From Synechococcus sp. CBW1002 (GTDB taxonomy: Bacteria; Cyanobacteriota; Cyanobacteriia; PCC-6307; Cyanobiaceae): a DNA stretch of 64,000 nucleotides. Location: the NCBI RefSeq assembly GCF_015840915.1, contig NZ_CP060398.1:1364001-1428000 (forward strand). The letters are read 5' to 3'. Shown here in pieces: positions 3 to 17,129 of the stretch. Position numbers and translations under genes: made by a program. A model generated the notes under the pieces. It was not told the DNA's origin. It was given only the letters and a program-made list of their open reading frames with translations, and ran no database searches. Numbering within the stretch: the first letter of the stretch is position 1; the number at the start of each line of letters is the position of its first letter.

Positions 3-893
3 GCTCCCCAGATGATCTCCCACCAGCGGCATCAGCACCTGCCCCGCTGGCAGGGGCAGGTGGACCAGCACCCCCTTGCAGGCTCCCTGCTGATCTGGCG
101 GGAGCAGGGGATCGGCGAGGAAATCCTCTTCCTCAGCCTGGTGCGCGATTTGATCGCCCAGGGGCAGCCTCTGGTGCTGGAGGTCTCAGCCCGCCTCCAA
201 CGGCTGGTTCAACGGAGCTTCCCCGGTGTGCCTGTGATCAGCCAGGGGGACTCCCTGGCGGGCCTCGACATCACCGCCGCCCTGCCGCTTGGCAGCCTCG
301 GTCTGCACAGCGGCTTCGACCAGGCTTCCTGGCTGCGCCGCCGCAGTCCATTCCTGCGGCCAGGGGCGGAGAGCGACCTGGCCCGGGTGCGCGCCTGCCT
401 GCCCCACCCCACCCACAGGAGCCGGGTGGGGCTCTGCTGGCGCAGCGTGGGATCGATCTATGCCGGACCGAAGTCCATCCCCCTGGCCAGTTTTGAACCA
501 CTGACCGGCCAGGCCGACACCCAGTGGATCAGCCTCCAGCATGGGGCCCTGGAGCCAGGGGAGGCTGAGGGGCTTGAACGTCTGGGGATTCACCGTCCGG
601 ACGCCGATTTCTTCCACGATCTGGAAGCCCTGGCCGCCTGGATTGCCAGCTGCGATCTTGTGATCACGATCAGTACCGCCACGGCCCATCTGGCCTGCGC
701 CCTCGGCAAGCCCACCTGGATGCTGTTGCCCGCTCCGCAATCGTTCTTCTGGTGGTGGGGCAATGAGGGAACACATACGCCCTGGTACCCCAGCGCCCGG
801 CTGTTCCGTCAGCCCAGCCCCGGCGACTGGGACGGTGTGATCACGCAGGTCCACCAGGCACTCGGGAGCTCCATACCATCGGCAGACTCCTGA
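3..893 (+). CDS. Glycosyltransferase-like protein (GT9-like C-terminal part), 5' partial
   Basis: The reading frame is open from the left edge of the window, so the ATG at 12 is probably internal and the N-terminus is missing. The visible 293 residues resemble the C-terminal ADP-heptose-transferase-like (GT9-like) part of TPR glycosyltransferases. An early GEEILFLSLVRDL stretch matches the conserved region that follows the TPRs in such proteins. Later, CDLVITISTATAHLACALGKP matches the donor-binding region, and PTWMLLP follows. TPR repeats would be expected upstream of the window but cannot be seen. The next gene starts 13 bases downstream on the same strand. The family call is good; substrate and linkage are unknown. 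Confidence 0.7.
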   Translation, partial: APQMISHQRHQHLPRWQGQVDQHPLAGSLLIWREQGIGEEILFLSLVRDLIAQGQPLVLEVSARLQRLVQRSFPGVPVISQGDSLAGLDITAALPLGSLGLHSGFDQASWLRRRSPFLRPGAESDLARVRACLPHPTHRSRVGLCWRSVGSIYAGPKSIPLASFEPLTGQADTQWISLQHGALEPGEAEGLERLGIHRPDADFFHDLEALAAWIASCDLVITISTATAHLACALGKPTWMLLPAPQSFFWWWGNEGTHTPWYPSARLFRQPSPGDWDGVITQVHQALGSSIPSADS

Positions 894-906
894 GCAGGCC
901 GGTCTG

Positions 907-1641
907 GTGATTCCCCGAATCCTTCATTACCTCTGGCTCAGTGATGAGCCCAGGCCAGAGCTCATGCGCCGCTGTATCGCGTCGTGGCAGCAGGTGATGC
1001 CTGACTTCCAGATCCGGCACTGGTCGTTGGCCGATTTTGATCAGAGCGCCCTGCCCCTCTTCGCCCAGCAGGCGATCGCGCTGAGGCAGTGGGCCTTTGC
1101 CTCCGATGTGCTGCGGCTCTGGCTTCTTGTTCAGCATGGGGGGGTGTATTTCGATGCGGATGTGCTGGCCGTGCGTTCCCTGGAGCCCCTGCTGGGCTAC
1201 GAGGCGTTCACGGCGGTGGAGTTCAATCCCATGGCTTTTGCCGCCGGGAACGGCGCCGCCTGGCTGGATGCTGATGGCAACCGGCGGGCAGGCGTTCGCC
1301 ACCAGGGACCGCCACCCGGCATCGGCCTGCAGGCGGCGGTGCTGGGCGCGGTTGCCGGGCACCCCTTCCTGCGCTCCTGCCTGGCCTACTACGAGTGCCG
1401 CCCTTTCCTGGAGCCCGATGGCAGCTGGCACCGCGATCCGATCGCCCCCGGGATCTATGGCCTGGCAGCGGAGCAGCATGGCTTCCGCTGGATCAACCAC
1501 ATGCAGAAACTCAGCCATGGCGTTGTTGTTCTGCCGGCGGAGATCATCGCCAGCACCAAGGCCCAATATGGGCGCAATACCCTGGCTTTCCACTGCTGCG
1601 CCGGATCGTGGCGCCAATCAATGCCACAGGTATTCCCTTAA
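907..1641 (+). CDS. Glycosyltransferase with DXD sugar-binding region (Gly_transf_sug / OCH1-like)
   Basis: This 244-residue protein starts with GTG at 907, directly at the conserved IPRILHYLWLSDE motif that opens this family, so the start is well placed. The motif HGGVYFDADVL (about residues 77-88) carries the DxD that binds the nucleotide-sugar/metal complex in capsular-polysaccharide and OCH1-type transferases. The protein has no signal peptide or membrane segment and is probably cytoplasmic. It lies in a block of glycan genes, 13 bases after the preceding glycosyltransferase, which suggests co-transcription. The sugar transferred cannot be read from the sequence. Confidence 0.8.
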   Translation: MIPRILHYLWLSDEPRPELMRRCIASWQQVMPDFQIRHWSLADFDQSALPLFAQQAIALRQWAFASDVLRLWLLVQHGGVYFDADVLAVRSLEPLLGYEAFTAVEFNPMAFAAGNGAAWLDADGNRRAGVRHQGPPPGIGLQAAVLGAVAGHPFLRSCLAYYECRPFLEPDGSWHRDPIAPGIYGLAAEQHGFRWINHMQKLSHGVVVLPAEIIASTKAQYGRNTLAFHCCAGSWRQSMPQVFP

Positions 1642-1792: not shown

Positions 1793-2728
1793 TCAGGATA
1801 TCGGCGCGCAGGTGAGTGCCAGCACCTGTTTGAGGTGGCGCTCATACATCTCCGCCACCTCCGCAGCTGTCAGGTAGCGCCAGGCGGCATGGGCGCCTGC
1901 ACTGGCGTGATAGGCCGTCTCACAGCTGAAACGCTCCACCACCGTTGGTGGTGGTGGAGTGGGGTCATGGCGTGCCAGGTGCCGTGCGAAGAAGATGTCC
2001 TCCGGTTCCTCCGGCGGCGATGCCGCTGCTTCGGCCTGGCAGATGCGCACCATCAGCTGGCGATCCCGCACCGAGAGGCCACCGTTGCCATTGCTCATCC
2101 CCTCAGGCACCGTGTTGCAGAAGCGTCGGGTCAGCCAGACGGGTGGCAGAGGCTCCAGATCGGCGCCGTAGCGGGGGAAAGCCTGGCTCACATGGCGGCC
2201 CTTGGCCCAGGGGGATCCCACATAGCCATAGGCAAAGACGGCAGGATCAGGTGGCTCGATCAGCAACGTGTCGGTCTGAAACAGGAGCAGTTTCGGGGCG
2301 GGGAGCTGGGCCCAGAACGCGGCCGTCTTCAGCAGCCGGTTGTAGGCCAGCCAGTCGAAGTGGTCGGCCTCTCCCGCCCGCAGCCCGACCACCGACACCC
2401 ACGCTGCCAGGTCGGCGAACAGCGCACGACTGCGCTCCAGAGACGCGGGCGCCGTGTAGAGCGTCACTCCCCAGCGTTGGCGCCCCATCAACAAGGTGTT
2501 GAGCACCGTCATCCGCAACAGCGGCGTGGGGCGATCGTCCACGATCACAGCCCGCAGGTGTGGATCCTGGGGACCGCTCGGCTGCCGCTGGCTGGCCAGG
2601 GCGCGAGCCCAGGGCTCGAGGTGGGTGCCCAGCACCACGCTGCAGTGGGCCTTGAAGATGGCGATGCGATAGGCCTCCAGCTGGTGCGTGGGGCTCTGGG
2701 GCAGGGGCGACGGCCCCGTCGTTGTCAT
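1793..2728 (-). CDS. DUF5672 family protein (glycosyltransferase-like)
   Basis: The 311-residue product has the hallmarks I associate with DUF5672: a region with YGYVGSPWAKG, a GNGGLSVRDRQLM segment and a PEDIFFARHL segment. These parallel the donor/metal and acceptor regions of GT-A-fold transferases, and DUF5672 proteins usually sit in polysaccharide clusters. An earlier LLLFQTDTLLI stretch provides an acidic residue at the place of a DxD-like motif. The ATG at 2728 overlaps the TGA of the upstream methyltransferase gene as ATGA, so translation is probably coupled. It is the last gene of a three-gene minus-strand set (sulfotransferase, methyltransferase, DUF5672). Enzymatic activity is inferred, not shown. 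Confidence 0.65.
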   Translation of the reverse strand: MTTTGPSPLPQSPTHQLEAYRIAIFKAHCSVVLGTHLEPWARALASQRQPSGPQDPHLRAVIVDDRPTPLLRMTVLNTLLMGRQRWGVTLYTAPASLERSRALFADLAAWVSVVGLRAGEADHFDWLAYNRLLKTAAFWAQLPAPKLLLFQTDTLLIEPPDPAVFAYGYVGSPWAKGRHVSQAFPRYGADLEPLPPVWLTRRFCNTVPEGMSNGNGGLSVRDRQLMVRICQAEAAASPPEEPEDIFFARHLARHDPTPPPPTVVERFSCETAYHASAGAHAAWRYLTAAEVAEMYERHLKQVLALTCAPIS

Positions 2729-3405
2729 GGCGCCGGGCGGTAGGCCACCATCACCTGATCACGGGGATGGTTCCAGGCGCCGATATATTCGGCCCGGTAG
2801 CCATGGGCCTCACCAAAGCCCTCCATCTGCTGCTTCGTGTAAGCGAAGAAGCCGTGGTCGTGGGCTTCGGTGGGGTTGCGCTGCTCCTGCAGCACCTCGA
2901 AGTAGGTGGCGTAGAAGACCCCATCCGGCTGCAGGCAGGGCCGCAGGCGTTGCAGGCACTGCTCGATCGCGGCCGGCGGCAGATGGGTGAACAGCGACTG
3001 GGCCATCGCCCGATCCACCCGTCGCCCGAAGCGTTCAAAGCTGAAATCGGCACCCTGCAGCAGCTGGGGCCGCTTCTGGTGGCGCACCGCCGCTGTCAGT
3101 TCCTGCTCCAGTCCGGCCTGAAGCAGGGCAGCCTCCTTCTCCATGCCCAGGTAGTGCTCCGGCTCCAGGTAGGGGATCACCTTCACGCCCAGCCGCAACG
3201 CCCCACAGGCGATGTCGAGCAACACATGCGACGGCTGCAGCCCCTGAGCCAGCAGGAAATCGAACTGCAGCTGGCCGATCTCCTCCCACAGCCCGCCGAC
3301 ATAACGGCGATGACCCAGCTCGGCCACCCCTTCAGCCCCGCTGGGCGGCAGGCTGGCTGTCATCGGTGGAACTGCATCAAGGTGCTGCACCATGGCGCCG
3401 GTCAT
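2725..3405 (-). CDS. Class I SAM-dependent methyltransferase
   Basis: I chose the ATG at 3405 because it overlaps the TGA of the upstream sulfotransferase as ATGA; a longer in-frame start at 3585 would run far into that gene and gives low-complexity residues. The 226-residue protein carries the SAM-binding motif I, VLLDIACGALRLGVKVIPYL (about residues 45-64), followed by an acidic/aromatic YLGMEKE stretch. A later FSFERFGRRVDRAMAQSLFT region resembles motif II/III. The place in a coupled operon with a sulfotransferase and a DUF5672 protein suggests methylation of a sugar or other glycan component. The acceptor is unknown. A C-terminal FFAYTKQQMEGFGEAHGYRA region is typical of small-molecule methyltransferases. 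Confidence 0.75.
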   Translation of the reverse strand: MTGAMVQHLDAVPPMTASLPPSGAEGVAELGHRRYVGGLWEEIGQLQFDFLLAQGLQPSHVLLDIACGALRLGVKVIPYLEPEHYLGMEKEAALLQAGLEQELTAAVRHQKRPQLLQGADFSFERFGRRVDRAMAQSLFTHLPPAAIEQCLQRLRPCLQPDGVFYATYFEVLQEQRNPTEAHDHGFFAYTKQQMEGFGEAHGYRAEYIGAWNHPRDQVMVAYRPAP

Positions 3406-4166
3406 GGCCAGGTTATGCCGTAGCGCCGGGCCATCTGGTCGTAGGTCGGCTCCAGCTGACGCCGCAACTGGCGTCGCAGCTCCTGCGGCACCTGTCCGGC
3501 CTCGCCGGCGCCCGCATTGTGCCGAGGCAGCCGCTCCGGCAAGGGGGATGGGTCGAGGCCCAGGAAACCCAGCAGCCGTGGCCACACCAGCTCCGGCCGG
3601 TCGAAGAGATCCTCCGCCTTGATCAGCAGGAGCTGCTCCGGAGCGAACAAGACCTCGTAGCGTTCCAACTGGGGGCCGTAGCAGCTGCGGCTCAGGTAGC
3701 TGTGCACCTGGTGTGAATGGTGCTGCGACAGGCCCGCCCGCAATTGCTCATCCGCTCCGGCCAGGCGACCAGACTCAGCGGCCAGGGCCTGCTCGGGCGG
3801 CAGCGACTCCAACCCCAGGCGGATCGAATGGAACAACCCGGAAAGAGCCCTCTCCACCGGGTCCCGCAACAGCACCACCAGTCGGGCGCCGGGGATCAGG
3901 TCATGCAACCGCTGCGGTGCAGCCGGATGGAACAGGTAATACGGCGTGATGTCGCCGCAGCGCTGATCGTTCCGAGCCGCCGCATAGTGCTGCCCGTACC
4001 AAATCGGGCCCCGCCCGTGGTTCAGGGTGAAGTAGTGCAGCTCTTTGCTGGCGGGCAACCACACCTGTGGATGATCGGCCAGCAGGCGGTGCAGGCTGGT
4101 GGTGCCCCCCTTCTGCGCCCCGAGGCCAACGAAATCGGGCAGTCGCAACCGGCTCGTTTCCCCCAC
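3402..4166 (-). CDS. Sulfotransferase (PAPS-dependent, Sulfotransfer_1-like)
   Basis: The 254-residue protein has both PAPS-binding signatures. The 5'-phosphosulfate loop is FVGLGAQKGGTTSLHRLL near residue 12, followed by a KELHYF segment. The 3'-phosphate loop is PGARLVVLLRDPVERALSGL near residue 90. This arrangement is that of heparan-sulfate-type and bacterial carbohydrate sulfotransferases. It probably transfers sulfate from PAPS to a hydroxyl or amine of a sugar in the cytoplasm. It is the first gene of a minus-strand operon, its stop overlaps the next gene as ATGA, and it is divergent from a second sulfotransferase-like gene at 4246, separated by 79 bases that must contain both promoters. 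Confidence 0.85.
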   Translation of the reverse strand: MGETSRLRLPDFVGLGAQKGGTTSLHRLLADHPQVWLPASKELHYFTLNHGRGPIWYGQHYAAARNDQRCGDITPYYLFHPAAPQRLHDLIPGARLVVLLRDPVERALSGLFHSIRLGLESLPPEQALAAESGRLAGADEQLRAGLSQHHSHQVHSYLSRSCYGPQLERYEVLFAPEQLLLIKAEDLFDRPELVWPRLLGFLGLDPSPLPERLPRHNAGAGEAGQVPQELRRQLRRQLEPTYDQMARRYGITWP

Positions 4167-4245
4167 GTTGCCGGGATCCTATGGGGGGCCGTGCCGGCGG
4201 CAGCCAGGATGTCGCTGCTGATCCACCACCGAGAGGCGGGTATCG

Positions 4246-4860
4246 ATGATCGTGGCCGACACGTTCCTGTGGCTTCATCTGCCCAAGACCGGCGGCACCA
4301 CCATGACGCGTCTGTTCCGCGAGCTCAATCTCCCCGGGATCGCCGTCGATGCCGACGACACCCCCGCCAAGCACGATTCCATTGCCCTCAGGGAAAGCCT
4401 TGGCCGCTGGAAGGCCGGGCAGCGGCGCCGCTTCATCACGGCGCGGCGGTTGGACGCCTGGCTGATCAGCGACTGGCACCACAAGCGGCGGCACATGAAC
4501 CTGCCGGATCTCCCGTTTGAGCCGGTTCGCAGCGGGCTCTCCTATTCACTCCGCCTTGGCGGCACCTGGGTGGCTGCAGACTGGTGGCTCCAGTACTTCG
4601 GCCTGACGTCCGAGATGTGCGCCCTGCGGCTCGAGCACTTCACGGCCGACTTCAATCAGCATCTGCTGCCCCTGCTGCCGCCGGGCACGCCGGCGCTGCA
4701 CTCACCACCGCGGGAAAATGCCAAGCCTGTGGTGGACCCAGCCTTTGAGCCCTGGTTCAGCGCGGCAGACCGTGCCCGCATCCATGCGGTGAACCCCCGC
4801 TGGAGCGCCTGGGAACGCTCCCTTTACGGTGAGCCCCCTGTCCAACCGTCCCCGGATTGA
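4246..4860 (+). CDS. Sulfotransferase-like protein
   Basis: The 204-residue product begins with FLWLHLPKTGGTTMTRLFRE (residues 7-26), a match to the 5'-phosphosulfate-binding loop of sulfotransferases (pattern LPKTGGT-T). A clear 3'-phosphate-binding RDP motif is not visible, so the protein may be a divergent or shortened member. The gene ends in a TTGA overlap with the next coding sequence, which indicates translational coupling. It starts divergently from the sulfotransferase gene at 3402-4166. Together with the next gene this gives three sulfotransferase-type domains within 4 kb. Activity is likely but less certain than for the neighbour because of the missing second motif. Confidence 0.65.
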   Translation: MIVADTFLWLHLPKTGGTTMTRLFRELNLPGIAVDADDTPAKHDSIALRESLGRWKAGQRRRFITARRLDAWLISDWHHKRRHMNLPDLPFEPVRSGLSYSLRLGGTWVAADWWLQYFGLTSEMCALRLEHFTADFNQHLLPLLPPGTPALHSPPRENAKPVVDPAFEPWFSAADRARIHAVNPRWSAWERSLYGEPPVQPSPD

Positions 4861-7856
4861 GCCCGCCGGAGTCCCCGTCCCTGATCCTGCTGGTGGGAAT
4901 GCATCGCAGCGGCACCTCGCTGCTGGGCTCGCTGCTGCCGGCACTGGGGGTGCCGCTGCCGGGTGATCTGATCGCCGGCGATGCCCATAACCCCGAGGGC
5001 TACTACGAACGTTCCGACATCACGGCTCTGCAGGAGCAGCTGCTGATCGCAATGGGCCAGTGGTGGCCGTCGGAAGCGGGGGTGCTGCATCGGCCCGAGG
5101 GCTGGCTCGACTTTCCCGCCGTACGCAGCGCTGCCGAGAGCCTCGACCGGCTTCTGGCGCAGGAGCAGCGGCGCCAGCTTGGGCCCTGGGCCATCAAGGA
5201 TCCGCGCACGTGCCTGCTGCTGCCGCTCTGGCGCCAGGTCGCCGCGCAGCGCGGGGTGCCCCTGAAGCTGGTGCTGAGCGTGCGGGATCCCGCCGAGGTG
5301 ATGGTGTCGCTGCTCCAGCGCGATCGCCGGGCCGCCGGCATGACCGCCTGGCGGGCCCAGCGCCTCTGGTGGCGCCACAACCGTGCGCTTCTGCTGGATG
5401 CCGCTGATCTTCCCCTGCTGGTGGTCGACTATGGCGCCTGGTTCGATCCTTCGACCTGCCGCCGCCAGCTGCAGGCCCTGGGACTCTTCTGCCTGGAAGC
5501 CGAACCCATGTCAGCGGCCCTCGAGGCTGCCGCGGCCTGCATCCGCCCAGGTCATCGGCGCAGCCGCCGTTCCCGCGCCGAGCTCCCCCAGGCCCTGCAC
5601 CCGCGCCTTCGTCGGCTGCACCGTGCGCTGCAGGAGCTGGCTGCGGGGCCACCCGATCGGGAACGCCGGCAGAGGCGGCTGGTTCGCTGGCTGGCGGCGC
5701 CGGGGCGCCAGCAGATACCGCCGATCGCACCGGCCGGCCGCTCCCTGCGCTCCCAGCTGATCCATCGGCGCGCTTCCCTGGCGCCCCAGGCGGAGGTGGG
5801 CCCCTGGTTCGATCCGGCCCACTATCGCCGCCAGGCGCCGGGTCTGGGCCTGGACCACGACCCCCTCTGCCACTACTGGTGGCGGGGATGGCGGGAGCAG
5901 CGCTCCCCCCATCCCGCCTTCGAGGGGGACGCCTACCGGCTGGCCTGTCGTAACCGAGGCCTCACCGTTCGGGGAGCACCGCTGCGCCATTTCCTCACCG
6001 TGGGTCTGGCGGCCGGCATCCCGCCCTCCCCGGTGGCCGAACCGCGCTGGCTGGCCGGCACACTGCAGCGGCAGGCGCTCTGGCGCGCCGCCCGACTGGA
6101 GGGGCTCCATCCGTGGGGGGCAGCAGCTCTGGCCCTGGAGGGTGACGATCTCCAGCAGGCGGTGGAGCGGCTCCGTCACTGGCAACGGCAGGGCTTCAGC
6201 GCCGACGATCTGGCCGCGATCGCCGCTGCCCCCCCCGGAAGCTTCACCCTGCCCGCTGCCCTGCTTCCGGATCCACCGCCGCTTCCACAGCGCTGCCGCC
6301 TGCAGGTACTGGGCACCCACCTGCACGATTGGCAGGTCCATGCCTGGTTGCAGCATGCACCCCTGCCGCCGGGGTTCTCGTTGATCGAGGGGCAGGCGCC
6401 GCCCGAAGCGGCTGAGTCGGTCATCGCCCTGGTGCTGAGCCCCCTGCCGCCGGGCCCCGCCAGCCTGCAGCTGCTCGGTCTGGCGCTGCTGCCCTGGGTG
6501 TTCGCCAGGGCCGAGCAGGTGCCGCTGCTGCGTCGCCTGGGGATCAATGCCCAACCCCTCGAGCCCGGCGTCGCCCCCAACGGCTGGCTGGCGGTGGAGG
6601 AGGCGGAGGCCGAAGCCGCGCGGCAGCTCGGAGTACCACCCGCGGCGGCCCTGGCCGGGCTGGCGCCCATCCTCGCCTTCGGCAGTCTGGGAGCAGAGTG
6701 GGAACGAAGCCTGGCGCCACCGATCTGGGGCTGGCCGGAGTTCGACGACCTGGCGATCGAGACCCCGCAGCAGGCCAGGCTGCTGGCCGCCTGGCTGGAT
6801 GCCTGCAACCGTGCCGGCATCCAGCTGGTGCGGCTCGAGCCCCCAGGCAGTGAGCGGCTGCTGCGGGGGTGGCAGGCCCTGATGCCCCCCTCTGACCCGG
6901 CACCGGGCTGGCTGCCGCCCCAGGGCTTCGTGGCGCCACTCAGCGCGATGGAGCTGCAGGGGGAACTGCGCTGGCGGGGCCAGGGGGCGCCAGCACCACC
7001 GCCGGTGCAGACCCCCAGGCCCGCCCACACGCTTCTGTGGGCCTGGCAAGGCGACGCCTCCGGGCCAGGCGGGATGGTGCAGACGCCCACGGCGGCGGTG
7101 TGCATCAGCCTGCACAACTACGCCGACCGGATCACCGCGGCCCTCGAAAGCGTCCTCGTCCAGAGCCATGGACCCCTCGAGCTGATCGTGGTCGACGATG
7201 CTTCCGAGGACGGTGGCGAGCAGCGCTGCCTGGCCTGGTTGGAGCGCCACGGTCAACGCTTCGTGCGTGCCCTGCTGGTGCGGCACACCGGCAATGGCGG
7301 TCTGGCGGCCGCACGCAACACCGCCTTCAGGCTCGCCCAGGCTCCCTGGTGCTTCGTGCTGGATGCCGACAACCTGCTCCACCCCGAGGCGGTGGCCGCC
7401 TGCCTGCGCCTGGCTCAGGCGAGCCCGGCAGACATCGCCGTGGTGCATCCCCTGGTGGAGGTGCTCCAGGACGGCGTGCTGCAGGGCAGCGACTCCACAG
7501 GGGCGGCGCCCAGCCTGATCAGCGGCCGCAGCTGGCAGCGCTGCCATTTCCTGGATCGCAACCTGTTGGACGCCATGGCCCTGGTGCGGCGCAGCGCCTG
7601 GGACGCGGTGGGGGGCTATGCCCACATTCCGGGCGGATGGGAGGATTACGACTTCTGGTGCAAGTTGATGGAAGCCGGCTACCAGGGCGTGCTGGCTCCG
7701 CAGCGGCTGGCCACCTACCACCGCCACCCTGAATCGATGCTCGCCACCGCCACCCATCAGCGGCTGCGGCTGGTGAGCCGCCACCTGCAGCAGCGTCATC
7801 CCTGGTTGCAGCTGAGTCTCGCCGCCGGGCCCGAGGAAGGATGGACCCTGGCGTGA
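4857..7856 (+). CDS. Fusion protein: N-terminal sulfotransferase, central glycan-associated region, C-terminal GT2 glycosyltransferase
   Basis: The 999-residue protein starts with TTG at 4857, overlapping the previous stop as TTGA. Residues about 8-50 hold a sulfotransferase loop (LILLVGMHRSGTSLLGSLLP) and residues about 135-150 a second motif (LVLSVRDPAEVMVSL). Residues about 310-400 contain two copies of a motif of the type FDP-HY and HYWWRGWREQRSPHPAF, a linker seen in large multi-domain polysaccharide transferases. Residues about 745-990 form a GT2 domain with VCISLHNYADRITAALESVL, IVVDDASEDGG and FVLDADNLLHP. About 300 residues between these parts are not assignable. The architecture suggests that sulfation and sugar transfer are joined in one polypeptide. 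The next gene overlaps by 16 bases. Confidence 0.75.
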   Translation: MSPPESPSLILLVGMHRSGTSLLGSLLPALGVPLPGDLIAGDAHNPEGYYERSDITALQEQLLIAMGQWWPSEAGVLHRPEGWLDFPAVRSAAESLDRLLAQEQRRQLGPWAIKDPRTCLLLPLWRQVAAQRGVPLKLVLSVRDPAEVMVSLLQRDRRAAGMTAWRAQRLWWRHNRALLLDAADLPLLVVDYGAWFDPSTCRRQLQALGLFCLEAEPMSAALEAAAACIRPGHRRSRRSRAELPQALHPRLRRLHRALQELAAGPPDRERRQRRLVRWLAAPGRQQIPPIAPAGRSLRSQLIHRRASLAPQAEVGPWFDPAHYRRQAPGLGLDHDPLCHYWWRGWREQRSPHPAFEGDAYRLACRNRGLTVRGAPLRHFLTVGLAAGIPPSPVAEPRWLAGTLQRQALWRAARLEGLHPWGAAALALEGDDLQQAVERLRHWQRQGFSADDLAAIAAAPPGSFTLPAALLPDPPPLPQRCRLQVLGTHLHDWQVHAWLQHAPLPPGFSLIEGQAPPEAAESVIALVLSPLPPGPASLQLLGLALLPWVFARAEQVPLLRRLGINAQPLEPGVAPNGWLAVEEAEAEAARQLGVPPAAALAGLAPILAFGSLGAEWERSLAPPIWGWPEFDDLAIETPQQARLLAAWLDACNRAGIQLVRLEPPGSERLLRGWQALMPPSDPAPGWLPPQGFVAPLSAMELQGELRWRGQGAPAPPPVQTPRPAHTLLWAWQGDASGPGGMVQTPTAAVCISLHNYADRITAALESVLVQSHGPLELIVVDDASEDGGEQRCLAWLERHGQRFVRALLVRHTGNGGLAAARNTAFRLAQAPWCFVLDADNLLHPEAVAACLRLAQASPADIAVVHPLVEVLQDGVLQGSDSTGAAPSLISGRSWQRCHFLDRNLLDAMALVRRSAWDAVGGYAHIPGGWEDYDFWCKLMEAGYQGVLAPQRLATYHRHPESMLATATHQRLRLVSRHLQQRHPWLQLSLAAGPEEGWTLA

Positions 7857-8941
7857 TGTCCACAGCCGCCGTGGACACGGACCTCCACCGGGCCGGTGGC
7901 CTTTCCTGCCTGGTGATCTCCCGCACACCGGAGCTGCTCAACCGCATGCTGGCCACACTCCAGGACGCCCGGGCGTTCTGGCACCCGGGTGATGAAGTGC
8001 TCTGCTCCTGGAATGGCAGCGCTGAGGCTGAGAACGCTCTCCAGCCCCCCGCGCCTGCTCTGCCGGGATTTCGGATCGCTCAGCGGCAGCCGTATCACTT
8101 CGCCAGCAACATGAACGCTCTGGCGCGGCAGGCGCAGGGTGAGTGGCTGTTGCTACTCAACGATGATCTCATCCTTGATCCCGGAAGTATCGATCGCGCC
8201 ATCCATCTCCTCAGCCAGCACCCGGAGGTCGGGGTGCTGGGCGGTCGATTGCGCCAGTCGGGCGGACAGATCAGCCATGCCGGGCTGCTGTTTTCCTCCC
8301 CGGAGGGTCTGCCGTACAACCGCCTGCGACCCCAGCTGGGGCCCCTGATCGACGCCGAGGGCCCGGAAGCGCTCGAATCAGGCCCGATCCCCGCGGTCAC
8401 CGGCGCCCTGATGTTGCTGCGTCGATCCGATTTCCTGGCGGTGGGGGGGCTGCGCGAGAGCTTCCGGGTGTGCGGCGAAGACATCGCCCTCTGCCTCGAT
8501 CTCTGGCAGCAGCTCGGCAAGACGCCCTACTACGCCAGCGATGTGAGTGGCATCCACGATGAGAAGAGCACCCGCGGCACGACCCCCGACCAGCACGACA
8601 TCCGGGCGGTAGGACGGCTCGCTGCGCCCTTCTGCCAGCACGATCAGGCCTTCCAGGCACGCCAGAGCCACTGGGCCCTGCAGGAGGCGGCGTTGCTGTG
8701 TCGTCTCACCGAGGAGCAATGGCACCAGGCCGGCGTGTGCCGCCAGCAGCTGGACCGGCAGCAGCAGCAATGGGAAGCGAATCAACAGCACTGGGCCCGC
8801 GAACGCAGCGCCCTGCTGGCCAGGATTGACAATCTCGAACAACGGCTGGAAGCCCTGCTGCGCAGCAGCTCCTGGGCCATCACCAAACCCTGGCGGGCCC
8901 TGGGTCGCTGCTTTGCACCGACTGCGGGGCGCCAGTCCTGA
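7841..8941 (+). CDS. Family 2 glycosyltransferase with C-terminal coiled coil
   Basis: The 366-residue protein has a GT-A fold signature. LSCLVISRTPELLNRMLATL opens the domain, LLLLNDDLILDPGSID carries the DD metal-binding residues, and ALMLLRRSDFLAVGGL is followed by GEDIALCLDLW, the acidic catalytic region (ED). This spacing is typical of rhamnosyltransferase-like GT2 enzymes. Residues about 265-350 are rich in Gln, Glu, Arg and Leu (RQQLDRQQQQWEANQQ) and likely form a coiled coil ending in a positively charged tail (SSWAITKPWRALG) that recurs in cyanobacterial glycan enzymes. The ATG at 7841 lies inside the end of the preceding fusion gene, so the two are probably coupled. Confidence 0.82.
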   Translation: MDPGVMSTAAVDTDLHRAGGLSCLVISRTPELLNRMLATLQDARAFWHPGDEVLCSWNGSAEAENALQPPAPALPGFRIAQRQPYHFASNMNALARQAQGEWLLLLNDDLILDPGSIDRAIHLLSQHPEVGVLGGRLRQSGGQISHAGLLFSSPEGLPYNRLRPQLGPLIDAEGPEALESGPIPAVTGALMLLRRSDFLAVGGLRESFRVCGEDIALCLDLWQQLGKTPYYASDVSGIHDEKSTRGTTPDQHDIRAVGRLAAPFCQHDQAFQARQSHWALQEAALLCRLTEEQWHQAGVCRQQLDRQQQQWEANQQHWARERSALLARIDNLEQRLEALLRSSSWAITKPWRALGRCFAPTAGRQS

Positions 8942-8960: not shown

Positions 8961-10187
8961 ATGCCTGCCCCCCCTCCCCCCCTGGAACACCTCTGGGTGG
9001 ACCTCACCCCGATGCTCCCCGGTGGCGCCAACGGTGGCGCCAAGCCGTTCATCCTCACCCTGCTGACCGAGCTGGCCCGTCAGCACCCCCAGGTGCGATT
9101 CGATTGCACCTGTCGGCCCGAGCTGCTGCCGGAACTGGCACTCGCATCGCCGCTGGAGCCGAATCTCCACGTCGGTCCGGTCATCCCCGCGGTGGCGGCC
9201 GGACGCTGGCTGGGTTCGCGGCGTCTGGGTCGGGCGGGTCGCCGCTGGCGTCGACGTCTGGCCTCGCGGCCCGGGACGCCGGTGGAGACCGGGCAACCGA
9301 ACCGGGGCGAGGGAGCGCAGCTGCTCTACTGCCCCTTTGGAGCACCGCTGCTGCACCGGGCCAGCCTCACCACGGTGTCCACCTTCCACGACCTGCAGGT
9401 GCAGGCCTATCCCGACTTCTTCCCCGCCGCGGCCCGCCGGGAGCGCCTGGAGCATTTCCGCCAGATGCTGGCGAAGGCCAGTCGCATCGCGGCCATCTCC
9501 CAGTTCTCCCGTCAGGAGGCGATCGAGCTGGGGGGCGATCCCGGCCGGATCGTGGTCATTCCCCACCGCATGGCCCTCAGCCGCAGGGCCGTGCCGATGG
9601 CTGAGCCCCCCTGCGCCCTGCCCTCCGGACGCTTCTTCCTCTACCCCGCCAATCTCTGGCGTCACAAGAACCATGAACTGCTGCTCAGTGCCTTCGCCAT
9701 GGCCCGCCACCAGGGGCTGCCAGCCGACCTGAAACTGGTGTGCACCGGTGATGGCGTCGACCGGCTCGAGCCCCTGCGCGAGCTGGCAGAGCAGCTCGGT
9801 CTGGCTGAGGCCGTCCTCCTGCCCGGATTCGTCAGCGATGCGGAGCTGGAGGGGCTCTACCAGCACGCCCTGGCCGTGGTGTTCCCCTCCCTCTACGAAG
9901 GCTTCGGCCTGCCGGTGATCGAGGCGATGGCCCGCGGCCTGCCGGTGGCCTGCAGCGACACCACCGCCCTGGGGGAAGTGGCCGGGGAGGCCGCCCTGCG
10001 CTTCCATCCCGGCCATCCCCAGCAGATCGCCGATGCCTTGCGCCAGCTGGCGGAGGATCCGGCCCTGCGAGACCGGCTGATCGAGCGGGGCCTGAGCCAG
10101 GCAGACGCCTACGCCCAGCCGGCTGTGATGGCTCAGCAGTACTGGGAGCTGTTCCAGGAAGCCCATGCCGCCGGTCCGGTGGCCTGA
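8961..10187 (+). CDS. Family 4 glycosyltransferase
   Basis: I chose the ATG at 8961 because the conserved HLWVDLTPMLPGGANGG start of this GT4 subgroup follows at once and because it lies just after the preceding stop; an in-frame ATG at 8826 is inside the previous gene. The 408-residue enzyme has the C-terminal GT4 signature: FFLYPANLWRHKNHELLLSA, then VVFPSLYEGFGLPVIEAMAR, whose E-x7-E pattern binds the nucleotide sugar, and a following CSDTTALGEVAGEAAL segment. It probably transfers mannose or a related hexose from a nucleotide sugar on the cytoplasmic side. The preceding gene ends 19 bases upstream. Confidence 0.85.
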   Translation: MPAPPPPLEHLWVDLTPMLPGGANGGAKPFILTLLTELARQHPQVRFDCTCRPELLPELALASPLEPNLHVGPVIPAVAAGRWLGSRRLGRAGRRWRRRLASRPGTPVETGQPNRGEGAQLLYCPFGAPLLHRASLTTVSTFHDLQVQAYPDFFPAAARRERLEHFRQMLAKASRIAAISQFSRQEAIELGGDPGRIVVIPHRMALSRRAVPMAEPPCALPSGRFFLYPANLWRHKNHELLLSAFAMARHQGLPADLKLVCTGDGVDRLEPLRELAEQLGLAEAVLLPGFVSDAELEGLYQHALAVVFPSLYEGFGLPVIEAMARGLPVACSDTTALGEVAGEAALRFHPGHPQQIADALRQLAEDPALRDRLIERGLSQADAYAQPAVMAQQYWELFQEAHAAGPVA

Positions 10188-10227
10188 GGCTGAGCGCCTC
10201 CGAGAATCATCTCCGCAGCACCGTTCC

Positions 10228-11139
10228 ATGAGCGCATCGATCCGCATCAGTGTCGTGACGCCCTCGTACAACCAGGGGGCCTTTCTGGCCCGCACCCTGG
10301 CCAGCGTGGCCAGTCAGAGCCATCCCGCCCATGAGCATCTGGTGTTCGATGGCGGCAGCACCGACGACACCCTGCAGGTGCTGGAGGCCGCAGGTGACGG
10401 GGTGCGCTGGGTGTCGCGGCCGGATGGAGGCCAGGCTGACGCTGTGAACCAGGGTCTGCAGGCGGCCGGCGGTGATGTGATCGCCTGGATCAACTCGGAT
10501 GACGTCTATTACCCCGGTGCCTTTGCAAGGGTGGCTGCCGCCTTCGCCAACGATCCCGACCTGGATGTGGTGTACGGAGCTGCCGATCACATCGACCTGA
10601 ATGACAGGGCCTTCGAGGCCTACCCCACCACCTTCTGGGATCCGGAACTGTTGCGCCACACCTGCTTCATCTGCCAGCCGGCCCTGTTCTTCCGCAGGCG
10701 CGTGGTGGAGACGGTGGGTCTGCTGGATCCGGGTCTGCGGTATTGCATGGACTACAACTACTGGCTCAGGCTTGCCGATGCCGGCTGCCGCTTCGCCTAC
10801 CTGAGCGACAAGCTGGCCGGCTCCCGCCTCTACGCCGACAACAAGACCCTCAGGGACCGGCCGGCCGTGCATCGGGAGATCGCCGAGATGTTCAAGGCCT
10901 ACGACGGCCAGGTGCCGCTGCGATGGGTCTTCGCCTACGCGCACCACAGCACGGCGGCCTGGATCGACCGCAGCGACCATCCCCTGCGCTTCAAGATCAG
11001 CCTCTATCTGGAAACGATGCGCAGTCAGTGGCGCTGGAACCATCGCGTCGGGATCTCCGCTCTGCGGGAGCTGCGCCGTGCCAGTCGACGTCATGCCCTG
11101 GAGGGTCAGGCCGCCGAGGCTGCCGCGGCCTCCTCGTAG
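10228..11139 (+). CDS. Family 2 glycosyltransferase
   Basis: The start at 10228 is preferred over an upstream in-frame ATG at 10165 because the latter overlaps the previous gene, while the GT2 domain starts within a few residues of 10228 (RISVVTPSYNQGAFLARTLA). The 303-residue protein contains HLVFDGGSTDDTLQVL, GGDVIAWINSDDVYYPGAF with the DxD-like DD, and a catalytic region CMDYNYWLRLADAGCRFAYL. This is the pattern of WcaA/SpsA-like GT2 enzymes that add sugars to lipid-linked chains. Its 3' end overlaps the convergent GT4 gene by 34 bases (11106-11139). Confidence 0.85.
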   Translation: MSASIRISVVTPSYNQGAFLARTLASVASQSHPAHEHLVFDGGSTDDTLQVLEAAGDGVRWVSRPDGGQADAVNQGLQAAGGDVIAWINSDDVYYPGAFARVAAAFANDPDLDVVYGAADHIDLNDRAFEAYPTTFWDPELLRHTCFICQPALFFRRRVVETVGLLDPGLRYCMDYNYWLRLADAGCRFAYLSDKLAGSRLYADNKTLRDRPAVHREIAEMFKAYDGQVPLRWVFAYAHHSTAAWIDRSDHPLRFKISLYLETMRSQWRWNHRVGISALRELRRASRRHALEGQAAEAAAASS

Positions 11140-12287
11140 AGCTCCAGCAGCTGGCGGGTGCTGTCCTGCCAGTTGAAGGCTGCAGCCCTGTCCCGGGCTG
11201 CAGCAGCCAGACCGGCAAGCCTCTGGGGCTGGTTCAGGAGACTCTCGATGGCCTCCACCCAGCCGTCGCGATCATCCGGTGCCAGGAGGATGCCGGCATC
11301 CGCGACGATCTCGGGCAGTGAGGTGGTCGAGGAACTGAGAACCGCTGCCCCCTGCCCCATCCCCTCCAGCACAGGCAGACCAAAGCCCTCGTAGTGGCTT
11401 GGGTAGAGGTTCAACAGGCAGTTCCGGTAGAGCCAGATCAGCTCCCGATCACTCACATAGCCGAGCAGGTGGATATCCGAGGCCCAGGGCGATGCCGCCA
11501 GATCCTTCTCGAAGCCTTCCATCAACCAGCCCTTGCCACCGGCAAACACCAGCGGAATCGCCGCTCCGCCCCTCTCCCGGAAGCGTTGATACACCTCCAC
11601 CAGGAAGCGCTGGTTTTTGCGCGGTTCGATCGTGCCGGTGGAGAGCAGGAAGGGCCGGCCGCTGCGGAACAGTGCGGCTCGCGGTTGGCTGGGCTGCAGA
11701 TCGAAGCCGGGCTGATCGAAGCGCGAGGCCGGATGGATCACCCGCACCCGCTCCGCCGGCACGTGGGGGAAATGACGCAGGAATGCACGCTTCGACGCAT
11801 GGGAGATGGCCACCAGCCAGTCCGCCCGCAGGGAGGCCTGCAGCACACCCTGGAAGCAACCGAGCCGATTCTTTTCGGTCGTCCACTCGGGATGCTCGGC
11901 AAAGCTCAGGTCGTAGAGCGTGTAGATCAGGGTGGAACGGAGCCGCCAGGGCGGACACCAGAAGTTGTTGGCGTGCACCAGATCGAAGCCGGCGAGCTGA
12001 TCGTTCACCCGCTGCCGATCCCGCCAGAAGGCCTCTGCATCGCTGCGTCGCGGCAGGCGGGGTCCATAGGCCACACCCTGACGGCGATGGGGGAAGGCCG
12101 CCGCCTGGCTGGGATCGTGAAAGAAATCGCCGAAGCTGGTGAGCAGGGTGTAGCGATGCGGTGCACCCGAGGCCAGCAGGCCGTCGATCAGGGCGGCGGC
12201 ATAGAACCCGCAACCGGCCTTGCGCGGGCCCGTCTGACTCACATCAAAGGCGATGTTCAGCGGCGCCACCCCTCCTCTCCTGGACAA
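11106..12287 (-). CDS. Family 4 glycosyltransferase
   Basis: The protein is 393 residues from ATG 12287. The conserved start is NIAFDVSQTGPRKAGCGFYA, so shorter starts are possible: a GTG at 12269 or even a CTG at 12260, which would overlap the upstream stop as CTGA. The upstream GT2 gene ends at 12257, so the longest form overlaps it by 31 bases. GT4 signatures are FLLSTGTIEPRKNQRFLVEV and LLNLYPSHYEGFGLPVLEGM, with the E-x7-E pattern near residue 305. Donor and acceptor are unknown. It converges on the GT2 gene at 10228-11139. Confidence 0.82.
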   Translation of the reverse strand: MSRRGGVAPLNIAFDVSQTGPRKAGCGFYAAALIDGLLASGAPHRYTLLTSFGDFFHDPSQAAAFPHRRQGVAYGPRLPRRSDAEAFWRDRQRVNDQLAGFDLVHANNFWCPPWRLRSTLIYTLYDLSFAEHPEWTTEKNRLGCFQGVLQASLRADWLVAISHASKRAFLRHFPHVPAERVRVIHPASRFDQPGFDLQPSQPRAALFRSGRPFLLSTGTIEPRKNQRFLVEVYQRFRERGGAAIPLVFAGGKGWLMEGFEKDLAASPWASDIHLLGYVSDRELIWLYRNCLLNLYPSHYEGFGLPVLEGMGQGAAVLSSSTTSLPEIVADAGILLAPDDRDGWVEAIESLLNQPQRLAGLAAAARDRAAAFNWQDSTRQLLELYEEAAAASAA

Positions 12288-13177
12288 TCGGGCAAGGGTA
12301 TCGGAGCCGGACGCGGCCCCAGCCGCAGGCGCAGCTTGCCCCAGTAGCGCTGCCAGGGCGGCGCCACAATCCCCAGCTCCCGGTTGATCGCGGCCAACTG
12401 CCTCCGGCCCCGCAGGATCGCCCGCCAGCCGCTGGTGGCCCCACCCTCCGCCATCGCCACCAGCGGGTCCGAGCAGATCTGGACGCGATCCGCCAGCTCG
12501 GGTCGCAGCAGCAGGGTCTGCATCAGTTTGTAGTCGGCGGAGAGGCTGTAGCGCTCATCGAACCCGGTGGCCCGGTAGAGGGCGGTTTCGGCCAGAAAGC
12601 CGGGATGGGGGTAGTGCAGCCCGCTGCGCAGCCGCTGATGCCAGAGGGCCGGATCCCGCGGCGGGGATGGCACCATCCACCGGGCCCGCAGCCAACGATC
12701 GGGCCGGCGGAAGTATCCGATCGAGGCCAGCAGCAGAGCGGCTTCCCGCCGACGAGCCTGCAGCAGGAAGGCCGCGTAGGCGCCCGGATCCAGCAGGAGA
12801 TCGTCTGCGTTGAGCACGTGGCTGTAGTGGCCACGCGCCAGCCGCAGGCCCACATTCATGGCGGCATAGGGGCCGCCGCCGATGTCCGTCTGCCAGCGGC
12901 AGAAGGGATGACGGTCTGCATGCCGCTCCAGCAGCCGTTGGGTGCCGTCACGGGAGCCGCCATCAATCACCAGATGCTCCAGGTCTTCACCGGCCTGCCG
13001 CAGAATCTGCCGAGCCCGCGCCACGCTCGTGAGCGTCTCGGGCAAGGTTCTCGCGGCTTCGAGGCAGGGGGTGATCACCGTCACCAGCGGCAGCCCGCCT
13101 TCCGAACCGGACCCTGCGGCATCGGTCTCGGGAGACGCAGCCTTCACGGGCACAGGGGCGGCAGGGAGGGGGTCCAT
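12257..13177 (-). CDS. Family 2 glycosyltransferase
   Basis: The chosen ATG at 13177 gives 306 residues and a GT2 domain starting at about residue 30 (LPLVTVITPCLEAARTLPET). The frame stays open much further upstream, to 13963, but that part is antisense to the neighbouring GT4 gene and has no family signature. Motifs are HLVIDGGSRDGTQRLL, GGPYAAMNVGLRLARGHYSH, LNADDLLLDPGAYA with the DD, and ERYSLSADYKLMQTLL near the expected catalytic site. It is divergent from the GT4 gene starting at 13214, with only 36 bases between the starts. The gene downstream overlaps it. Confidence 0.83.
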   Translation of the reverse strand: MDPLPAAPVPVKAASPETDAAGSGSEGGLPLVTVITPCLEAARTLPETLTSVARARQILRQAGEDLEHLVIDGGSRDGTQRLLERHADRHPFCRWQTDIGGGPYAAMNVGLRLARGHYSHVLNADDLLLDPGAYAAFLLQARRREAALLLASIGYFRRPDRWLRARWMVPSPPRDPALWHQRLRSGLHYPHPGFLAETALYRATGFDERYSLSADYKLMQTLLLRPELADRVQICSDPLVAMAEGGATSGWRAILRGRRQLAAINRELGIVAPPWQRYWGKLRLRLGPRPAPIPLPDCPGEEGWRR

Positions 13178-13213: not shown

Positions 13214-14308
13214 ATGCCCTCTCGCTTCTCCCAGAGCGTCAGCATCGGCTTCGATGGCCAGATCTTCCGGCGGCAGCGGCGGGGGGGGATCAGCCGCTAC
13301 TTCCGAGAACTGGCCCTGAATCTGCGCGCTGCGGGCGCAGAGGTGCTGATGGCGGAGGAGCGCCAGGGCTGCTGGCCCTGGTCCGGTCACCTGCCCTGGC
13401 GGCGGGCGGATGTGGTGCACGCCACGTTCTACGGCGGCGGGCCCTATCGGCTGCAGAGCCACCAACGCCTGGTGAGCAGCCTGTTCGACATGACGCCGGA
13501 GCGCCATCCCGAGCACTTTTTCCTGCCGGCCCTGCGTTCCCCCCATGCCAACAAGCCGGGGTGGCTGGAGGTCTCTGACCTGATCATCAGCATCAGCGCC
13601 GCCAGCGCCGACGACCTGGCTTTCTTCCAGCCGACCCTGCGGACGCCCCTCAGGGTGATCCACCTCGCCACCGCCATCGACAGGCTGGTCCCCCAGCCCG
13701 TGGAGGCGCTGGAGGGGCGACGGTTCTGGCTGATGGTGGGCAAGCGCCACGCCTACAAGAACGGCCTCACACTTCTGCGGGCCCTGAGCCTGCTGCATGG
13801 CGGCGACGGCGATCGGGGTCGCAGGGATCAGCCCCTGCTGGTCTGTGCCGGAGGAGGCCCCTGGAGAGCCGAGGAGCGGCGCTGGATCCATGGCCAGGGT
13901 CTGGAGGATGCGGTGCTGCAACTGGCAGCGACGGATCCGGTGCTGGCCTGGCTCTACCGCCACGCCGAAGCCGTGCTGGTGCCCTCCCTGGCTGAGGGGT
14001 TCTCCCTTCCGCTGATCGAAGCTCTCGCCTGTGACACGCCAGTGGTGGCCTCAGATCTGGAGGTGCACCGGGAGGTTGGCCAGAGCTTCGCGACCCTGCT
14101 GCCGGCCCTGAATGCACGGGTCTGGAGCGAGCTGCTGGCCGCGGCCGGGCAGGGGACTCTGCCGCGGCCGAGTCACCGGCTGGGAGGAGAGCGCTATGCC
14201 CGGCTGCGTCGTCATTTCGCCCCCGAGCGGCTGGTGCAGGACCATCTGGAGGCCTACGGATCCACCACCGACCGTCCCAGTCCCCGGATCAGGGGCAGGC
14301 GTGGCTGA
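13214..14308 (+). CDS. Family 4 glycosyltransferase (mannosyltransferase-like)
   Basis: The 364-residue enzyme begins with SIGFDGQIFRRQRRGGISRY, a start typical of GT4 mannosyl- or related transferases. Its C-terminal half has FWLMVGKRHAYKNGLTLLRA, VLVPSLAEGFSLPLIEALAC with the E-x7-E motif, and TPVVASDLEVHREVGQSFA. It reads divergently from the GT2 gene at 12257-13177. Its end overlaps the convergent GDP-mannose dehydratase gene by 20 bases (14289-14308). Position beside that dehydratase makes a GDP-sugar donor plausible, but this is inference. Confidence 0.83.
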   Translation: MPSRFSQSVSIGFDGQIFRRQRRGGISRYFRELALNLRAAGAEVLMAEERQGCWPWSGHLPWRRADVVHATFYGGGPYRLQSHQRLVSSLFDMTPERHPEHFFLPALRSPHANKPGWLEVSDLIISISAASADDLAFFQPTLRTPLRVIHLATAIDRLVPQPVEALEGRRFWLMVGKRHAYKNGLTLLRALSLLHGGDGDRGRRDQPLLVCAGGGPWRAEERRWIHGQGLEDAVLQLAATDPVLAWLYRHAEAVLVPSLAEGFSLPLIEALACDTPVVASDLEVHREVGQSFATLLPALNARVWSELLAAAGQGTLPRPSHRLGGERYARLRRHFAPERLVQDHLEAYGSTTDRPSPRIRGRRG

Positions 14309-16646: not shown

Positions 16647-17129
16647 TCAGGGGTCTGCCAATGCCCCCATGAGGCTGCCCATCTCCAGGGCCTGCAGGCC
16701 GTAGCTCCAGCCCAGGTTGCTCTTGATGCCCGCCCGCTCCAGGGCCTGCTGCAGGGTGTCGGTGGTGAGTACCCCGAAGATCACCGGCACTCCGGTGTCA
16801 CGGGCGACGCTGGCCACGCCCTTGCTCACTTCGGCCACCACCACATCGAAGTGGGGGGTGTCGCCGCGGATCACCGCCCCGAGGGTGACCACCACCTGAT
16901 AGCGACCACTGCCGGCAAGCCGCTGGGCGACCAGGGGAATCTCAAAACTGCCGGGGACCCAGGCCACGTCAAGCTGGGCGCTCGACTCGCCCACATCGAT
17001 GCCGTGGCGTGAGAGGCAATCCAGGCAGCCGCTGAGCAACTTACCGGTCACCAGATCGTTGAACCGCGCCACCACAACAGCGATGCGGAGGCTGGCAACG
17101 TCGGTGAAGCGACCTTCAAAAATGGCCAA
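16647..17129 (-). CDS. ribH: 6,7-dimethyl-8-ribityllumazine synthase (riboflavin synthase beta chain)
   Basis: The 160-residue protein is full length for RibH. It catalyses condensation of 5-amino-6-ribitylaminouracil with dihydroxybutanone phosphate, the penultimate step of riboflavin synthesis. Key stretches are [51 protein letters not shown] with the catalytic-region His, and [20 protein letters not shown]. It forms icosahedral or pentameric cytoplasmic assemblies in other bacteria. The ATG lies 5 bases after the psbZ stop on the same strand, so psbZ and ribH are co-transcribed. Function is certain on family grounds. Confidence 0.97.

Follow-up and report, generated by a model that had tools for sequence, protein, structure and literature searches.

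A putative sulfation module of a surface glycan in the Synechococcus sp. CBW1002 chromosome

Three adjacent genes of Synechococcus sp. CBW1002, encoding ST1, ST2 and an ST3-GT2 fusion, probably attach sulfate to a surface sugar chain. They lie in a 64,000-nucleotide stretch of contig NZ_CP060398.1 (hereafter the window). Since ST1 and ST3 have the features of sulfotransferases, APS kinase for PAPS supply is encoded in the genome and the neighbouring genes encode glycosyltransferases, the locus is best read as specifying a sulfated surface glycan. We consider it likely that the three genes belong to the sulfation module of a glycan that would be built up on a polyprenyl-phosphate primer and receive its sulfate from PAPS while still in the cytoplasm, would probably be methylated, and would then leave the cytoplasm through a Wzm/Wzt ABC transporter whose genes lie ~20 kb upstream.

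Gene content and sulfotransferase domains

The open reading frames of ST1 (254 aa), ST2 (204 aa) and the fusion (999 aa) are real and conserved in relatives. A preliminary description of the window had located three sulfotransferase-type domains at 3402-7856 and had proposed profile searches and a synteny comparison as checks. The domains are borne out, ST1 clearly, ST3 through its relatives and ST2 probably, on its motifs. The synteny comparison showed that the three frames keep their order and orientation in the same-genus genome G001 (~65-75% identity) and in G054 and G035 (~50-67%), and that the ST1-ST3 pair recurs across Cyanobiaceae. The gene content is listed in Table 1. The gap between the divergent genes may be a promoter region common to both sides, which would drive an ST1-methyltransferase-DUF5672 operon in one direction and an ST2-ST3/GT2-GT2-GT4-GT2 operon in the other. 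The TPR-glycosyltransferase gene starts upstream of the window and, read across the border, is a single 559-codon frame with only the terminal stop. The ribH border is common to several relatives.

Table 1. Features of the glycan locus (positions in the window)
Feature	Position	Strand	Evidence
TPR-glycosyltransferase, C-terminal (GT9-like) part	12..893	+	weak PF01075 match; TPR repeats upstream
GT32-type glycosyltransferase (DXD sugar-binding region)	907..1641	+	PF04488 2.9e-10
DUF5672 protein, end gene of ST1 operon	1793..2728	-	PF18922 9.5e-19; 4 nt overlap with methyltransferase gene
SAM-dependent methyltransferase	2725..3423	-	PF08242 31 bits, cut-off 30
ST1 sulfotransferase	3402..4166	-	PF13469 and PF00685 over cut-off; 3rnl 6e-35; human 3-OST 1e-26
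Divergent intergenic gap, 79 bp, ST1 operon vs ST2/ST3 operon	4167..4245	.	coordinates and sequence
ST2, probable small sulfotransferase	4246..4860	+	11-homologue alignment; weak Sulfotransfer_2 profile match
ST3-GT2 fusion	4857..7856	+	N-terminal putative sulfotransferase; C-terminal GT2 1.6e-23
GT2 with C-terminal coiled-coil-like stretch (aa 291-349)	7841..8941	+	PF00535 4.6e-9; heptad scan
GT4 glycosyltransferase	8961..10187	+	PF00534 2.8e-32
GT2 glycosyltransferase	10165..11139	+	PF00535 2.5e-27
GT4 glycosyltransferase	11106..12287	-	PF00534 3.9e-24
GT2 glycosyltransferase	12257..13162	-	PF00535 4.2e-15
GT4 glycosyltransferase	13214..14308	+	PF00534 4.7e-17
GDP-mannose 4,6-dehydratase-like SDR, divergent paralogue	14289..15233	-	PF16363 1e-78; TIGR01472 217 vs cut-off 415 bits
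Polyprenyl-phosphate hexose-1-phosphate (priming) transferase	15235..16539	-	PF02397 1.3e-61; TIGR03025 289.7 vs cut-off 295.55
ribH, island border (then small gene, mutS)	16647..17129	-	PF00885; synteny

In the profile search, ST1 passed the cut-offs of PF13469 (49.3 against 27 bits) and PF00685 (32.9 against 22 bits), the fusion N-terminus scored below threshold (PF13469, 13.3 bits, E 0.1), and ST2 gave no Pfam match even at E 10 with five homologues searched. Together with its matches to structures, these scores place ST1 clearly among sulfotransferases, in the heparan-sulfate 3-OST/NDST-like branch. ST1 carries the P-loop QKGGTT (GAQKGGTTS), the motif KELHYF and the motif LLRDPVERALS, and its second PAPS motif, the 3'-phosphate-binding R-x7-S, is formed by R101 and S109. 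ST1 aligns with the 3-OSTs and the bacterial protein 3rnl over most of the domain. Glu184, the catalytic base of 3-OST-3 (PMC8341778), aligns with the invariant E-x-H-x-F motif of ST1, whose E42 and H44 are unchanged in nine relatives. In contrast, Ser/Thr and Ile stand at the positions of ST1 aligned with Asp189 and Lys215 of 3-OST-3, and ST1 is therefore classed as 3-OST-like rather than as a 3-OST. It may sulfate its sugar by a 3-OST-type mechanism.

ST2 is a probable sulfotransferase. It matched no PDB sequence, and neither ST2 nor the fusion N-terminus gave a family-level match to the ST1 profile. A weak hhalign profile match to a Sulfotransfer_2 (PF03567) protein was obtained (E 2e-4, probability 44%). 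An AlphaFold model made from five sequences had a mean pLDDT of 50 and was set aside. The P-loop reads LHLPKTGGT (conserved form LHxPKTGGT), and P13, K14, G17, T18, R67 and S75 are invariant in 11 aligned rows, Rhodobacter relatives included. The preliminary description had credited one of the single genes with only the first PAPS motif. For ST2 this is probably wrong, because the invariant R67-x7-S75 has the second-motif spacing of ST1 and of ST3 (R143/S151), and we rejected the reading of ST2 as a protein without that motif.

The fusion consists of the sulfotransferase region (~aa 1-270), a low-confidence linker (~285-420), a middle region (~420-735) and the GT2 domain (~743-985). That its N-terminus is a divergent sulfotransferase is supported through relatives. 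PF13469 matches the ST3 region in six of nine relatives (best 0.0013), and the Planktothrix homologue is over the cut-off (34 bits). An ST3 N-terminal profile matched protein-tyrosine sulfotransferase 1 (TPST1) at 8.5e-5. The P-loop GMHRSGTSLL is followed by R143 and S151 (R-x7-S), which are invariant in ten rows, and the fusion itself is present in nine aligned relatives. Foldseek and VIA-align were uninformative on ST3 and the middle region, since all matches to the whole fusion were taken up by the GT2 domain. ST3 may sulfate the sugar added by its fused GT2 or by a partner enzyme.

The glycan was previously suggested to be methylated and to contain a 6-deoxyhexose. Methylation is plausible, because ST1 overlaps a methyltransferase gene and is fused to a methyltransferase in Planktothrix. 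In the window the two genes share as many as 22 nt, or 4 nt if a downstream start at 3405 is used. The case for a 6-deoxyhexose is weak, as the gmd-like gene encodes a divergent paralogue. The other glycan genes, the priming transferase and the gmd-like gene are present as described, but the identification of the last as gmd did not hold. Its product is far under the cut-off of TIGR01472 (an NCBIfam equivalog), and its closest solved structure is 1rpn. The gene at 14289-15233 was rejected as the canonical gmd of the genome, which is at G000:C1:2804169.

Exporter linkage and distribution in relatives

The exporter genes upstream of ST1 encode ABC2_membrane (4.9e-24), ABC_tran (5.3e-22) and Wzt_C (2.9e-12) domains, the last being the sole Wzt_C domain in the genome (G000:C1:1346760). 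The island has Wzm/Wzt on its upstream side and the priming transferase and ribH-mutS downstream, and its further products include a type I exporter, HlyD, a PPIase, RTX proteins and a GT4. A role of the linked RTX genes in SwmA/oscillin-type motility was considered and set aside. A hydropathy scan of the called genes identified Wzm, the priming transferase and the type I exporter as the only multi-TM proteins of the island, and no Wzx-, Wzy- or PCP-like multi-TM protein was found from Wzm to ribH.

Of the 300 Cyanobiaceae genomes sampled, 48 had an ST1 ortholog. A Wzt_C domain co-occurred in 18 of these 48, compared to 35 of the 252 others (Fisher p 2.6e-4, a value that ignores phylogeny). 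In all ten genomes with ST1 and Wzt_C on one contig, the two were 6.6-21.4 kb apart. The exporter is not always of the Wzt_C type, since the remaining 30 ST1 genomes had no Wzt_C match; in some of them, such as Prochlorococcus MIT 0701, a nearby ABC pair lacks the C-terminal domain. Of 29 named Cyanobiaceae loci, Prochlorococcus included, 23 have ST3 no more than 9 kb from ST1, and in 19 of these 23 the two are on opposite strands. In Planktothrix, the gene order is Wzm, Wzt, an ST3-coiled coil-GT2-GT2-GT4-MTase fusion and then an ST1-MTase fusion. An extended coiled-coil-like region at ~aa 279-484 of the Planktothrix ST3 fusion is suggested by a simple heptad scan, together with weak matches to Pfam coiled-coil families; in the window, such a stretch is found in the GT2 gene adjoining the fusion. 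The ST1/ST3 pair appears to be a widespread variant, often beside an ABC exporter, and could serve as a marker for sulfated-glycan loci. If this is correct, sulfated surface glycans reach freshwater Cyanobium/Synechococcus and some Prochlorococcus, for which none is described in the open-access literature searched. Glycans of this kind matter for the adsorption of phages, for grazing, for the binding of metals and for dissolved organic sulfur.

Alternative readings of the locus

By analogy, the sulfate, with or without a methyl group, may be a chain-terminating cap, an attractive though doubtful reading in which the sulfotransferase, the methyltransferase and a coiled-coil ruler would stop polymerisation and the Wzt C-terminal domain would admit only capped chains. 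The Planktothrix fusions, one directly downstream of Wzm-Wzt and the other joining ST1 to a methyltransferase, are consistent with this, as is the coiled coil beside the window fusion. Known ABC-system terminators bear a coiled-coil ruler (PMC11231755), WbdD, on which the analogy draws, is a kinase-methyltransferase (PMC3482155), and a Wzt of A. aeolicus binds a methyl cap (PMC9445017). However, one cap needs fewer than two or three sulfotransferases, most ST1 genomes are without Wzt_C, and the Planktothrix methyltransferases are not close homologues of the window methyltransferase. A cap-reader signature was not seen in the Wzt C-terminal domain among the ST1-bearing loci compared; no conserved reader is visible because this domain is 25-48% identical between loci, compared to 57-80% for the ATPase part. 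The wider proposal, that ABC-exported glycans of picocyanobacteria and Planktothrix end in a sulfate or sulfate-plus-methyl cap, with a sulfotransferase in the role of the enterobacterial O-antigen kinase-methyltransferase terminators, is somewhat unlikely. The cap is a special case of the sulfation-module model, and the Planktothrix fusions make cap versus repeat decoration directly testable.

It is unlikely that the glycan decorates a secreted RTX protein to give a sulfated glycoprotein coat. The type I exporter and RTX genes of the island would fit such a coat, and among 29 Cyanobiaceae loci, 16 have a GT4 (PF12000), 13 HlyD and seven RTX no more than 10 kb from ST1, with GT4-RTX also downstream of ST1 in Planktothrix and Lyngbya. 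Yet this closeness may merely reflect a common surface-gene island, and type I substrates pass from the cytoplasm directly across both membranes, so that their glycosylation would be unusual. A synechan-like Wzx/Wzy-dependent polysaccharide, with flippase and polymerase encoded elsewhere, is quite unlikely. The priming transferase would suit it, as would two proteins that pass the Wzy_C cut-off and are encoded at other places in the genome, and in Synechocystis the synechan OPX is encoded away from the cluster (PMC8205485), but the content of the island and its linkage to Wzm/Wzt argue against it. Finally, the sulfotransferase-like proteins are very unlikely to act on a lipid or peptide or to be inactive. 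Although the best solved relatives of ST3 are tyrosylprotein sulfotransferases and ST2 matches no family, the relatives of ST1 are glycan sulfotransferases, ST3 is fused to a GT2 in the nine aligned relatives and the motifs are invariant.

Relation to known systems

The view that the locus differs from synechan is supported by its lack of a Wzx/Wzy-like protein and its linkage to Wzm/Wzt. The xss cluster of Synechocystis sp. PCC 6803 also groups several glycosyltransferases, a priming transferase and two sulfotransferases that belong to different subfamilies (PMC8205485). In contrast to the chromosomal island described here, with its Wzm/Wzt, sulfotransferase-GT2 fusion, overlapping methyltransferase and DUF5672 protein, xss is on a plasmid and carries Wzx, Wzy, PCP and the XssQRS regulators (PMC8205485). 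Most cyanobacterial sulfotransferases are encoded in glycan clusters of the Wzx/Wzy or ABC type, and an ABC-type cluster was suggested for the A. platensis capsule (PMC8205485). Since ABC-type sulfotransferase clusters were already predicted, this kind of system is known; the ST1/ST3-GT pair, the fusions and the presence in Prochlorococcus are not described for such clusters, e.g. Arthrospira, in the portion of PMC8205485 drawn on here. The kps-like capsule clusters of marine Synechococcus (Syn-eCAG_008/009), likened here by description, also place ABC-type capsule genes in picocyanobacteria, and sulfotransferases are unmentioned for them in PMC10119275. The E. coli O9a and K. pneumoniae O7 O-antigen systems share Wzm, the Wzt C-terminal domain, modular multi-GT enzymes, a methyltransferase and, putatively, a coiled coil with these loci, but their terminators are a kinase-methyltransferase or Kdo. 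The word 'sulfate' is absent from the main text of PMC11231755; a sulfate cap, if real, would be a new terminator chemistry.

Organisation of the sulfotransferase locus

The 3.85 Mb genome that holds the window is a single contig and belongs to the Synechococcus/Cyanobium family. The three sulfotransferase-type open reading frames claimed in the preliminary description are all present: ST1, the small ST2, and ST3, the N-terminal domain (~aa 1-270) of a 999-aa fusion with a GT2 glycosyltransferase. The observation of three sulfotransferase-type domains was confirmed, and its interpretation as a locus for a sulfated glycan was partly supported. ST1 and ST2/ST3 belong to gene groups on opposite strands separated by a gap of 79 bp. 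The Wzt of the ABC glycan exporter (Wzm/Wzt), encoded upstream of the window, carries the only C-terminal Wzt_C domain of the whole genome.

Coordinates of the sulfotransferase locus and associated features (L handles are the loci named in each row; G000:C1 is the contig of the CBW1002 genome, on which the window spans 1364001-1428000)
Feature	Coordinates	Strand	Content
ST1	3402-4166	-	overlapping group of ST1, methyltransferase and DUF5672 genes
Methyltransferase, DUF5672		-	
ST2	4246-4860	+	overlapping group of ST2, ST3-GT2 and GT2; then GT4 and a further GT2
ST3-GT2 fusion	4857-7856	+	
Toward ribH and mutS			three more glycosyltransferases, a gmd-like gene, a priming transferase
Upstream region	G000:C1:1345000-1364000		Wzm, Wzt with Wzt_C, secA, type I exporter with HlyD and PPIase, two RTX-like proteins, 301-aa protein, GT4, start of a TPR-glycosyltransferase
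Type I exporter	L034:7694-15830 (G000:C1 ~1352693-1360829)		exporter with cNMP-binding, C39-like and ABC parts; HlyD, PPIase and two RTX-like proteins
301-aa protein	L034:15946-16851		N-terminus VRVAIPHYF
Other PF13469 proteins	G000:C1:990726, 1483585, 1631255, 2944097, 2989474		
ST2 remnant, Prochlorococcus MIT 0701	L043:17328-17844		internal stop codons
ST1-ST2, Rhodobacter viridis	L113:10001-11399		
ST1-ST2, Aliiroseovarius	L103:7031-8464		

In this genome and in many relatives, the type I exporter, HlyD, the PPIase and two RTX-like proteins are encoded in linkage with the sulfotransferase island. The 301-aa protein, for which a Pfam search returned no match, is conserved next to ST1 from Prochlorococcus to Planktothrix. 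Five more PF13469 proteins are encoded elsewhere in the genome, and the 1243-codon open frame of the one at 1483585 may represent another fusion.

Synechan is Wzx/Wzy-dependent (PMC8205485). That paper had also reported ABC-type cyanobacterial clusters that contain sulfotransferases, which makes this kind of system known in outline. Searches of the open-access literature found no description of the conserved ST1/ST3-GT pair, of its fusions with methyltransferase and glycosyltransferase modules, or of its occurrence in Prochlorococcus.

Assignment of the three proteins as probable sulfotransferases

ST1 scored above the Pfam cut-offs of both PF13469 and PF00685. A profile built from nine rows matched the bacterial sulfotransferase 3rnl at 6e-35, human heparan-sulfate 3-O-sulfotransferases (3-OSTs) at ~1e-26 and N-sulfotransferases at 7e-19. 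In the alignment with the 3-OSTs, K19 of ST1 falls on the P-loop Lys, E42 on the catalytic Glu and H44 on the His; the catalytic base of 3-OST-3 is Glu184 (PMC8341778). Judged from its sequence, ST1 is almost certainly a sulfotransferase.

In the fusion, the GT2 domain was matched strongly and the sulfotransferase N-terminus was sub-threshold in Pfam. PF13469 was matched by six of nine fusion relatives, at 0.0013 for the best, and the Planktothrix homologue of the fusion lies above the cut-off of that family. An hhalign comparison of the fusion N-terminus with the Planktothrix domain gave 1e-21, and the N-terminal profile matched tyrosylprotein sulfotransferase 1 at 8.5e-5. ST3 is very probably a sulfotransferase. 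The middle of the fusion (aa ~420-735) is conserved and was modelled fairly confidently (pLDDT ~80), with no family match; it may be an additional domain of GT-like or binding type.

ST2 had no match in a Pfam search, and hhalign against a PF03567 protein gave a weak one. The P-loop and an R-x7-S motif are invariant among its relatives from Cyanobiaceae, Rhodobacter viridis and Aliiroseovarius, which makes ST2 a probable sulfotransferase. ST1 and ST2 homologues lie side by side in Rhodobacter viridis and Aliiroseovarius, indicating that the pairing crosses phyla. In Prochlorococcus MIT 0701, the ST1 beside the broken ST2 remnant is intact.

Distribution among relatives

Among the 300 genomes sampled from the family, 48 carried an ST1 ortholog, defined by a score of at least 270 bits, and the trait is therefore patchy. 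ST3 lies less than 9 kb from ST1 in 23 of the 29 named Cyanobiaceae loci, and loci with both include Prochlorococcus single-cell genomes and Prochlorococcus MIT 0701. In all ten genomes with ST1 and Wzt_C on one contig, the two are 6.6-21.4 kb apart. ST1 and Wzt_C also share a genome more often than expected by chance (Fisher p 2.6e-4, a statistic that ignores relatedness); no Wzt_C was found in 30 of the 48 ST1 genomes.

The ST1 tree places the window protein, with support of 100/97, in one group with Vulcanococcus limneticus, WH 5701 and three further Synechococcus; these five loci are exactly those where, as in the window, the methyltransferase and DUF5672 genes lie beside ST1. Synechococcus sp. 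CS-1328, of the same genus, falls outside this group and is without the two genes beside ST1. This correspondence suggests that ST1, the methyltransferase and DUF5672 move as a unit. ST1 and ST3-like genes are also carried by two contigs binned as Schlesneria (Planctomycetota; L069 and L071), whose ST1 nests within the picocyanobacterial clade, reflecting either transfer or mis-binning.

The Planktothrix arrangement and a possible role in chain termination

In Planktothrix and in related loci, a ~2,100-aa protein is encoded directly after Wzm and Wzt; in P. rubescens it has the module order ST3, coiled coil, GT2, GT2, GT4 and methyltransferase. Next come an ST1-methyltransferase fusion, a PF12000-like GT4 and an RTX protein. 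The arrangement ties together sulfation, methylation, polymerisation and ABC export. The terminators of ABC-dependent O antigens are modular in a similar way (PMC11231755, PMC3482155, PMC9445017), and this likeness, together with the arrangement itself, raises the idea that sulfate, with methyl, might cap the chain and terminate it, by analogy with the kinase-methyltransferase WbdD; we consider such a role for sulfate unlikely. A homologue of the 301-aa protein is also present in most Planktothrix-type loci.
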